NCBI RefSeq assembly: GCF_022179465.1
Contig: NZ_BPQV01000002.1
Location: 434,001-498,000, forward strand
From: Methylobacterium organophilum
GTDB lineage: Bacteria > Pseudomonadota > Alphaproteobacteria > Rhizobiales > Beijerinckiaceae
Direction: 5' to 3'
Length of the DNA stretch: 64,000 bases
Part shown: positions 36,701 through 38,584 of the stretch, one piece after another
Numbering within the stretch: the stretch's first letter is position 1
Layout: each line of letters begins with the position of its first letter
Notes under the pieces: generated by a model
The model's input: only the letters and a program-made list of their open reading frames with translations
The model's database searches: none
Told to the model about the DNA's origin: nothing
Position numbers and translations under genes: made by a program

Positions 36701-36725
36701 AACGCCTCCTGAACGCTACGGTTCC
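36701..36725 (-). promoter_or_regulatory. EcfG-type promoter of the secreted-protein gene
   Basis: On the minus strand the sequence reads GGAAC, 16 bases, CGTT. This matches the general stress sigma factor consensus GGAAC-N16/17-cGTT exactly. It is 38 bp upstream of ATG 36662. Confidence 0.75.
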
Positions 36726-36868: not shown

Positions 36869-36893
36869 GGAACTGGGGAGGCGCCTCCTCGTT
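36869..36893 (+). promoter_or_regulatory. EcfG-type promoter of the predicted small RNA
   Basis: GGAAC (36869-36873), 16 bases, CGTT (36890-36893): exact fit to the EcfG consensus on the + strand. No protein gene follows; a strong terminator ends the transcript 95 bp further on. Confidence 0.75.
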
Positions 36894-36899
36894 GAGGAA

Positions 36900-36988
36900 A
36901 CACCCGGCCACCTGGTCCTCCCCGCATTCCCCTTGTGCATTGGCCGGAACCTCTGAACACGGGTCGGACATCGTCCGACCCGTTTTTT
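36900..36988 (+). ncRNA. predicted EcfG-dependent small RNA with C-rich loop
   Basis: Predicted transcript of about 89 nt, from roughly 7 nt after the -10 element of a perfect EcfG promoter to the T-tract of a perfect terminator. The 5' domain pairs CCGGCC (36904-36909) with GGCCGG (36942-36947). This leaves a loop rich in unpaired C, with TCCTCCCC (36916-36923) and TTCCCC (36927-36932), both complementary to Shine-Dalgarno sequences. The 3' end is a 10-bp terminator hairpin. A stress-sigma-dependent small RNA with a C-rich target-binding loop recalls GsrN of Caulobacter; homology is not shown. No open frame of coding quality lies in it. It converges on phyR. Confidence 0.65.
36960..36988 (+). 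terminator. strong Rho-independent terminator of the small RNA
   Basis: A perfect 10-bp stem CGGGTCGGAC/GTCCGACCCG with a 3-nt ATC loop and six T. It is immediately followed by the oppositely oriented phyR terminator. Confidence 0.92.
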
Positions 36989-37065: not shown

Positions 37066-37869
37066 TCAGGCGCTCTTGGCTTCTCTGCGACGAGCCGTCT
37101 GCTGGAAGAACAGCGCTTGGCTGATCACCGCAGAGACGTTGGCCGGCTGGAACGGCTTGGCGATGAGGAAGGCCGGCTCCGGACGCTCGCCGGTGAGGAA
37201 GCGTTCGGGATAGGCGGTGATGAAGATTACCGGGACCTCGAAGGTCTTCAGAAGATCGTTCACCGCATCGAGGCCGGACGAACCGTCGGCGAGCTGGATG
37301 TCCGCGAGGATCAGGCCCGGGCGGGTGCCCTCCGAGGCGATTTTCACCGCCTCCGTGCGCGTACGGGCGACGCCGATGACATTGTGCCCGAGGCCTTCCA
37401 CCAAGGCTTCGAGATCCATGGCGATCAGCGGCTCGTCCTCGATGATCAGGATCTGCGTCGCCATGTCGGCCGCGAGTTCGCGGCCGGCCTCGTCGACGAG
37501 CTCACGCACCTGCGCGACATCCACCTCGAGGATGATCGCGGCGTCCTCCTCCGAGAATCCCTCAAGGCAGGAAAGCAGGAAGGCCTGACGTGGCAGCGGC
37601 GTGATCTGCCCGAGCCGGACCTCGGCCGGAAGATCATGCTGCACCTGCTCGCTATGGCCGTTCACGGAGAGCGAGTTCCAGATCCGCGTGAAGACGCGGA
37701 ACAGGTCCGCCTTGACGTTGCTGCTGCGGCCCAGCGTCTCCGGCTCGTTCACCAGCGTCTCGAGCGTGGCGGCCACGTAGGCGTCGCCCGCGACCTGACT
37801 GCCGGTGAGCGCGCGCGCGTAGCGGCGCAGATACGGCAGGTGCTGCACGACGAGTTGCGCTGTGGACAT
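37066..37869 (-). CDS. phyR: PhyR, general stress response anti-anti-sigma regulator
   Basis: A protein of 267 residues. The N-terminal half (1-130) mimics an ECF sigma factor: a sigma-2-like region (LPYLRRYARALTGSQVAGDAYVAATLETL) and a sigma-4-like region (LPRQAFLLSCLEGFSEEDAAIILEVDVAQVRELVDEAGREL). The C-terminal half (137-260) is a response-regulator receiver with acidic pocket IIEDEP, phosphoacceptor D190 (GLILADIQLADGSSG), T/A switch (VIFITAYPE) and conserved Lys (FLIAKPF). When phosphorylated it binds the anti-sigma factor NepR and frees EcfG. Length and D190 match M. extorquens PhyR. It is divergent from nepR and has its own EcfG promoter, giving positive feedback. Confidence 0.97.
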   Translation of the reverse strand: MSTAQLVVQHLPYLRRYARALTGSQVAGDAYVAATLETLVNEPETLGRSSNVKADLFRVFTRIWNSLSVNGHSEQVQHDLPAEVRLGQITPLPRQAFLLSCLEGFSEEDAAIILEVDVAQVRELVDEAGRELAADMATQILIIEDEPLIAMDLEALVEGLGHNVIGVARTRTEAVKIASEGTRPGLILADIQLADGSSGLDAVNDLLKTFEVPVIFITAYPERFLTGERPEPAFLIAKPFQPANVSAVISQALFFQQTARRREAKSA

Positions 37870-37911
37870 GTCTTCCCCTGACCTTTGCCGGTCTTGCGTT
37901 GCTTCCGCCCT

Positions 37912-37936
37912 AACGCAGCCGGAACGACTCCGTTCC
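37912..37936 (-). promoter_or_regulatory. EcfG-type promoter of phyR
   Basis: On the minus strand GGAAC (37936-37932), 16 bases, CGTT (37915-37912): exact consensus, 43 bp upstream of the phyR start. Its -35 element faces that of the nepR promoter 8 bp away. Confidence 0.85.
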
Positions 37937-37944
37937 GGTCAAAC

Positions 37945-37969
37945 GGAACCCTTCCCAGGCAGGGGCGTT
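37945..37969 (+). promoter_or_regulatory. EcfG-type promoter of nepR
   Basis: GGAAC (37945-37949), 16 bases, CGTT (37966-37969): exact consensus on the + strand. The gene start is 68-80 bp downstream. Confidence 0.85.
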
Positions 37970-38049
37970 TGCGCGAAAGCCATGGCTCATATGGAGCTGC
38001 AAGACAATCGCGGTACACCGCGGGCGCAGCGCAAGGGATGTTCGGGCGG

Positions 38050-38274
38050 ATGAGTAGCGAAGAGGATGCCGGGGCGCCGCAGGGCGGCCACCGACAGTGG
38101 GGGCCGCGCACGCGCAGCCGGGGGATGGAGGAGCAGACGCAGAAGCGGATCGGTATCCATCTGCGCGCTCTCTACGATTCCGTCGTCGAGCAACCGATTC
38201 CCGATAGGTTCAAGGATTTGATCGCTCGCCTCGACGACTCCGAAAGCGCCCCGCCAGCGTCGACCGAGAGCTGA
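38050..38274 (+). CDS. nepR: NepR-family anti-sigma factor
   Basis: A protein of 74 residues with the NepR core of two helices: EEQTQKRIGIHLRALYDSVVEQPIPDRFKDLIARLDD. It binds EcfG and holds it inactive until phosphorylated PhyR binds NepR instead. ATG 38050 is preferred; ATG 38038 with AAGGG directly in front is possible and would add MFGR. It is divergent from phyR. The ecfG gene, which follows nepR in many Alphaproteobacteria, is not here; the next gene is on the other strand. Confidence 0.9.
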   Translation: MSSEEDAGAPQGGHRQWGPRTRSRGMEEQTQKRIGIHLRALYDSVVEQPIPDRFKDLIARLDDSESAPPASTES

Positions 38275-38558: not shown

Positions 38559-38584
38559 AACGTCAAGGTTTGAGCGCCGGTTCC
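38559..38584 (-). promoter_or_regulatory. EcfG-type promoter of the DUF1328 gene
   Basis: On the minus strand GGAAC, 17 bases, CGTT: exact consensus with the longer allowed spacer, 57 bp upstream of ATG 38502. Confidence 0.8.

Follow-up and report, generated by a model that had tools for sequence, protein, structure and literature searches.

A predicted EcfG-dependent small RNA gene convergent with phyR in Methylobacterium and related genera

Described stress-dependent small RNAs and the locus beside phyR

The closest described system is GsrN of Caulobacter. In the parts of PMC5869019 that were available, GsrN is a sigma-T-dependent small RNA (sRNA) whose loop pairs with katG mRNA, which is processed to a stable 5' isoform with stabilisation by Hfq, and which showed no feedback on stress transcription in a stress-promoter reporter. 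On the basis of promoter, position and loop, the same parts propose RNAs like GsrN in Rhizobium, Sinorhizobium, Brucella, Rhodopseudomonas, Bradyrhizobium and others; the kind is already known, EcfG-dependent sRNAs with a C-rich loop having been reported or predicted at general-stress loci in other alphaproteobacteria. The word Methylobacterium is absent from the text of that paper. According to the available sections of PMC3927594, SmelA075/SmelA099 consist of three or four hairpins whose loops all contain CCUCCUCCC, and relatives of the SmelC671 family are claimed in Methylobacteriaceae. PMC6180224, likewise available in part, describes seven RpoE2-dependent sRNAs of Sinorhizobium meliloti, which are comparable by description as members of an equivalent stress regulon, and the RpoE2 promoters printed there agree with an EcfG-type consensus. 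For M. extorquens DM4, transcription start sites have been mapped and orphan start sites are mentioned (PMC9320726, in part), and the accessible text of PMC6520949 places sRNA transcripts outside the scope of that study.

We identified a putative sRNA gene at 36900..36988 on the plus strand of the window, i.e., the whole stretch of 64,000 nucleotides that was analysed. The RNA would be about 88 nt long; its start is approximate and is taken from the onset of conservation in relatives. It is preceded by a box of the GGAAC-N16/17-CGTT type, which we take to be the EcfG consensus, at 36869..36893 (+), with GGAAC at 36869-36873, a spacer of 16 nt and CGTT at 36890-36893. The intrinsic terminator (36959..36988, +) has a perfect stem (36959-36983) of 11 pairs including the last A-T pair, a 3-nt loop and six T. 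The perfect general-stress promoter and the perfect terminator of the original prediction are thereby confirmed. In between, RNAalifold predicts a 5' stem-loop (36904..36947, +) in which CCGGCCA (36904-36910) pairs with TGGCCGG (36941-36947) and encloses a 30-nt loop carrying two C-rich motifs, UCCUCCCC (36916..36923, +) and UUCCCC (36927..36932, +). The predicted RNA has a minimum free energy of -37.6 kcal/mol (z -4.27), which none of 200 shuffles equalled; the energy of the 5' domain by itself is less striking (z -1.87; 10 of 200 shuffles equally good). The sRNA gene is the single convincing match in its own genome. A mechanical list of open reading frames contains frames across the sRNA gene, including one of 343 aa antisense to phyR. 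A coding gene was rejected because the predicted transcript contains no ATG and relatives differ by one-base indels, which bears out the initial reading that no coding frame follows the promoter.

The convergent neighbour is phyR (37066..37869, -; Pfam PhyR_sigma2, PhyR_sigma-like and Response_reg), for which a separate terminator-like stem was identified (37033-37019, -), so that the two terminators stand back to back as had been proposed; nepR (38044..38274, +; Pfam NepR) is also present. An EcfG-type promoter, a phyR/nepR/ecfG locus and an exposed C-rich loop in the 5' half, features by which GsrN-like RNAs are recognised, are thus found in the sequence. With GsrN and the GsrN-like RNAs, as far as the available text of PMC5869019 describes them, the Methylobacterium RNA shares an EcfG/sigma-T-type promoter, a general-stress locus, a 5' stem with a C-rich loop, an intrinsic terminator and a length of about 90-100 nt. 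Unlike GsrN, it forms a sequence family of its own, has two C motifs in its loop and converges on phyR; it also has a possible target in the phyR Shine-Dalgarno sequence, whereas GsrN is described there as having no feedback in the reporter. The anti-Shine-Dalgarno-like loop sequence is shared with SmelA075/SmelA099, but the Methylobacterium RNA has one loop with UCCUCCCC and UUCCCC instead of repeated hairpins (PMC3927594, in part). Identity with an RNA of the CCUCCUCCC-loop kind, as known from that text, was rejected, since one hairpin and a terminator are found and CCUCCUCCC is absent from the transcript.

No description of this RNA in Methylobacterium or Microvirga was found in the open-licence PMC literature, and within that literature the conserved EcfG-boxed sRNA gene of the Methylobacterium clade is apparently undescribed. 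The earlier suggestion of an undescribed GsrN counterpart therefore holds for Methylobacterium and Microvirga, as judged by open-licence PMC papers, and does not extend to other alphaproteobacteria, for which the accessible text of PMC5869019 already reports or predicts such RNAs.

Conservation of the element and its relation to phyR and GsrN

By BLASTN, 111 of the 112 genomes of the genus (own genome included) have a match to the element, and the majority of these matches begin no more than a few bases from 36901, close to the expected +1. In the sole genome without a match (G074) the contig ends 79 nt past phyR. In a family-wide sample, 53 of the 298 genomes carried the element; they fall into 4 of the 43 genera (g1, g20, g32 and g36), so that beyond the genus it occurs in Microvirga and two others. 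When named genomes were scanned for TCCCCGCATTCCCCTTG, at least 118 stretches were recovered. Among the matches listed, 88 of 118 carry the full element, and the other 30 are paralogs or, where inspected, chance matches; the full-element holders listed are Methylobacterium, Methylorubrum, Microvirga, 'Rhizobiales bacterium YIM 77505' and MAGs, two of which are labelled Rhizobiaceae (L132) and Beijerinckiaceae (L169). Promoter, loop and terminator, on whose presence in related genomes the original prediction depended, are all three kept. The comparison with Rfam that had been proposed was run on the window with Rfam 15 and gave no family at the gathering score; the best match, SorY (RF02651), was rejected at 20.4 bits against a gathering score of 111.

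The promoter was analysed in 167 loci (L002-L050 and L126-L243), 137 of which had the motif and 118 of which gave distinct upstream stretches; L087 lies outside this set. An EcfG-type box (GGAAC + NGTT) was present in 118 of these 118 stretches, with CGTT (109), TGTT (5) or GGTT (4) as the -10 element and a spacing of 16 (66), 17 (49) or 19 (3). The stem starts 9-10 nt past the box in 114 of them. In an earlier, overlapping set, which excluded L001, L077-L080 and L091-L125, the box was found in 84 of 85 loci, the exception being L087, a Microvirga-type copy. The majority base in the columns of the N16 spacer (n=66) reaches a frequency of 0.29-0.61 (0.82 in the first column). Retention of the box while the spacer drifts points to a working promoter. 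The box alone is little proof, since GGAAC-N16/17-CGTT occurs 58 times in the own genome versus 46 times for the reversed control, and the weight therefore rests on conservation. The window holds five such boxes, compared to a mean of 0.6 in simulated sequence, all within 1.9 kb and preceding the sRNA, phyR, nepR, a DUF1328 gene and a small ORF to which no Pfam family was assigned. The four boxes other than that of the sRNA, at 36701-36725(-), 37912-37936(-), 37945-37969(+) and 38559-38584(-), make the neighbourhood look like a tight local stress regulon.

RNAalifold on 28 sequences recovered stem and terminator unaided. Two-sided changes occur in 5 of 13 pairs, one in the stem (in g20 only) and four in the terminator.

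The conserved stretch could alternatively serve phyR as its terminator or another 3' element, in which case the box would be coincidental and there would be no separate RNA gene. The position of the element is consistent with this: the sRNA is convergent with phyR in 84 of the 88 named full-element loci among the matches listed, and in 83 of 83 loci scored among them 132-584 nt separate the loop from the 3' end of phyR (L149 being the 84th convergent locus). Consensus boxes, moreover, are common by chance in a GC-rich genome. However, box and loop are conserved over a drifting spacer, phyR has its own terminator-like stem, and paralogs bearing the loop occur elsewhere. Three of the remaining four loci listed end before the expected start of phyR. 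The fourth, L189 of Methylobacterium frigidaeris, has no phyR in 4.7 kb on the usual side and has box, stem, loop and terminator intact, so that the sRNA gene persists there without adjacent phyR (INDEPENDENCE from phyR). A mere phyR terminator was rejected on the conserved box with its drifting spacer and on L189, and an element of phyR is a highly improbable explanation. An EcfG-dependent sRNA gene is, as judged from these comparisons, very probably present.

Under strict filters, a covariance model of the element (R1), run on 397 genomes of the order, gave no convincing match outside the family (f1). Weak matches in 11 genomes (29.6-34 bits) were rejected, an EcfG box being found at none of the 11 of 12 places inspected. 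Two loci, L258 and L262, have the C-rich stem and no box. A search with the PhyR N-terminus for EcfG paralogs returned only phyR and three weak matches. On the 3' side of phyR in five loci of other families no counterpart was found. Among 20 phyR loci of other families, two candidate RNAs were judged convincing, one converging on phyR (L365:2591(+)) and one behind phyR in the same direction (L361:4197(+)). Both combine an EcfG box and a terminator with a stem whose loop is very rich in C, and both are unalignable with the Methylobacterium RNA; candidates at L368:6633 and L372:4161 were judged unconvincing. Similar RNAs seem to recur at phyR across families.

Microvirga and g36 have a second EcfG-boxed RNA, with a stem ACCGG..., a loop with TGCCCCC and a terminator, which lies on the strand of the first, at a distance of about 1.7-3.7 kb, and whose loop is more GsrN-like. 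It was located at L164:7044-7118(-), L154:3977-4053(+), L148:4299-4370(-) and L143:5410-5480(+), and also at L130, L152, L156, L165, L170, L179 and L200, and did not show up in the own genome. There, 53 EcfG consensus sites lie outside the locus, and inspection by eye of the sequence downstream of them revealed no sRNA2-type RNA. Only one of these sites (L285, on C4 near 370024, minus strand) has a close terminator and is possibly another short EcfG transcript.

These observations bear on the question whether the Methylobacterium RNA is a sequence-diverged orthologue of GsrN that still acts on its targets, katG among them. The two share promoter type, place and 5' C-rich loop, and the available text of PMC5869019 names Rhizobiaceae candidates GsrN homologues though BLASTn matches stop at Caulobacteraceae. 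Against orthology stand the lack of a convincing R1 match outside f1 in the 397 genomes under strict filters, the unrelated phyR-linked candidates in other families and the second EcfG-boxed RNA at the same locus in Microvirga and g36. Orthology is unlikely on this evidence. By sequence the Methylobacterium RNA is a family of its own, with GsrN entering the comparison by description only; compared with that published description, it likely works in the way GsrN does.

A constant loop and its candidate targets

The loop is the least variable part of the element, its C-rich sequence hardly changing across genera and about 26 bases being nearly invariant across relatives. In alignment A1, UCCUC is invariant, and the C run after it differs in length or is replaced by AAC (L036 and L039). 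The claim that the stem exposes both C motifs was upheld for CCCCU, with a mean unpaired probability of 0.97 (27 of 28 sequences), and only partly for UCCUC plus three bases (0.76). Paralogs elsewhere in the genome were found in Microvirga (L077, L078, L145, L159 and L192) and at L079 and L140; the Microvirga and g36 paralogs have an identical loop CCCCGCATTCCCCT, which retains the second C motif, on different but complementary stems. A canonical EcfG box precedes only L079 and L140 among them, whereas L077, L078, L145, L159 and L192 have GGAAC and lack a canonical -10 element. Stem pairing in the paralogs was assigned by script (longest run), with the alignment off by one in the stem and the pairing of L082 differing from A1. 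Since the loop is unchanged while the stems differ and remain complementary, the stem appears to serve as the holder of a constant loop.

A loop of this constancy could bind a protein, the stress-induced RNA acting as a sponge and not on mRNAs. About 26 nearly invariant bases do exceed what one seed needs, but the C runs of the loop resemble an anti-Shine-Dalgarno sequence, and inspection revealed no protein-binding motif in it; a sponge is improbable. Pairing in trans through the loop is the probable mode of action. Our preferred reading is an EcfG-dependent, trans-acting base-pairing sRNA, to which we assign a probability of roughly 0.8. Under stress, PhyR would free EcfG from NepR, and EcfG would transcribe the ~88-nt RNA from the box at 36869-36893 to its own terminator. 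The 5' stem would then display the C-rich loop. Through it the RNA most likely base-pairs in trans with several mRNAs at their G-rich ribosome-binding sites and probably lowers, or at least changes, their translation.

One candidate target is the Shine-Dalgarno sequence of phyR, AGGGGAA (37873..37879, -), which could pair with UUCCCCU; the RNA would then be a brake on the stress core. In 77 phyR leaders from loci with the RNA (75 nt upstream, ≥75% identity), AGGGGA is the Shine-Dalgarno sequence in 75, versus 2 of 31 genomes of other families (6 of 31 for GGGGA, the same motif shortened by its first A). When each genome's loop was compared with its own phyR leader, uninterrupted Watson-Crick pairing over 7 nt or more was found in 52 of 77 cases, 50 of them covering the Shine-Dalgarno sequence. 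Two neighbouring genes gave 0 of 66 and 0 of 51, and shuffled phyR leaders 11%; the genomes behind these counts are related and not independent. The Shine-Dalgarno sequence of the DUF1328 neighbour varies by lineage, the commonest purine hexamer being present in 27 of 66 (the count registers purine-only hexamers). In the own genome AGGGGAA-N3-9-ATG occurs 32 times versus 6 in the control, and AGGGGAA is a real minority Shine-Dalgarno sequence there; other genes with AGGGGAA before ATG include those with MinD/ParA-type ATPase, YjgF/RidA-type and Hint domains. An RNAduplex ranking of 30 of these 32 sites was uninformative and placed phyR near the bottom. A search of the own genome for a long complement of the loop returned the sRNA gene's own antisense and one site with 3 mismatches. 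From these sequence comparisons phyR mRNA may be a target, a suggestion that we regard as tentative.

Meaning for the general stress response

If phyR is a target, translational feedback would act inside the stress core itself. A fuller circuit can be imagined, in which EcfG makes the RNA, UUCCCCU blocks the phyR Shine-Dalgarno sequence and the same RNA is the post-transcriptional factor that sets stress-dependent EcfG3 levels; we consider it unlikely. Were it true, loop and phyR Shine-Dalgarno sequence would have stayed matched to each other throughout Methylobacterium, Microvirga and their relatives, and the paralogous copies in Microvirga would widen the circuit.

In M. extorquens, as reported in 2016 in the available part of PMC4814048, EcfG3 protein rises under stress in a PhyR/EcfG-dependent manner with unchanged transcription, an effect on whose cause its authors wrote 'possibly by a small RNA'. 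That study used a tagging vector into which every ecfG ORF had been cloned, and the assay may for that reason not report an effect exerted via the native ecfG3 leader. The sRNA beside phyR is a concrete candidate for this small RNA, and its gene is of interest because it gives the EcfG3 question, as stated in that text, a direct test.
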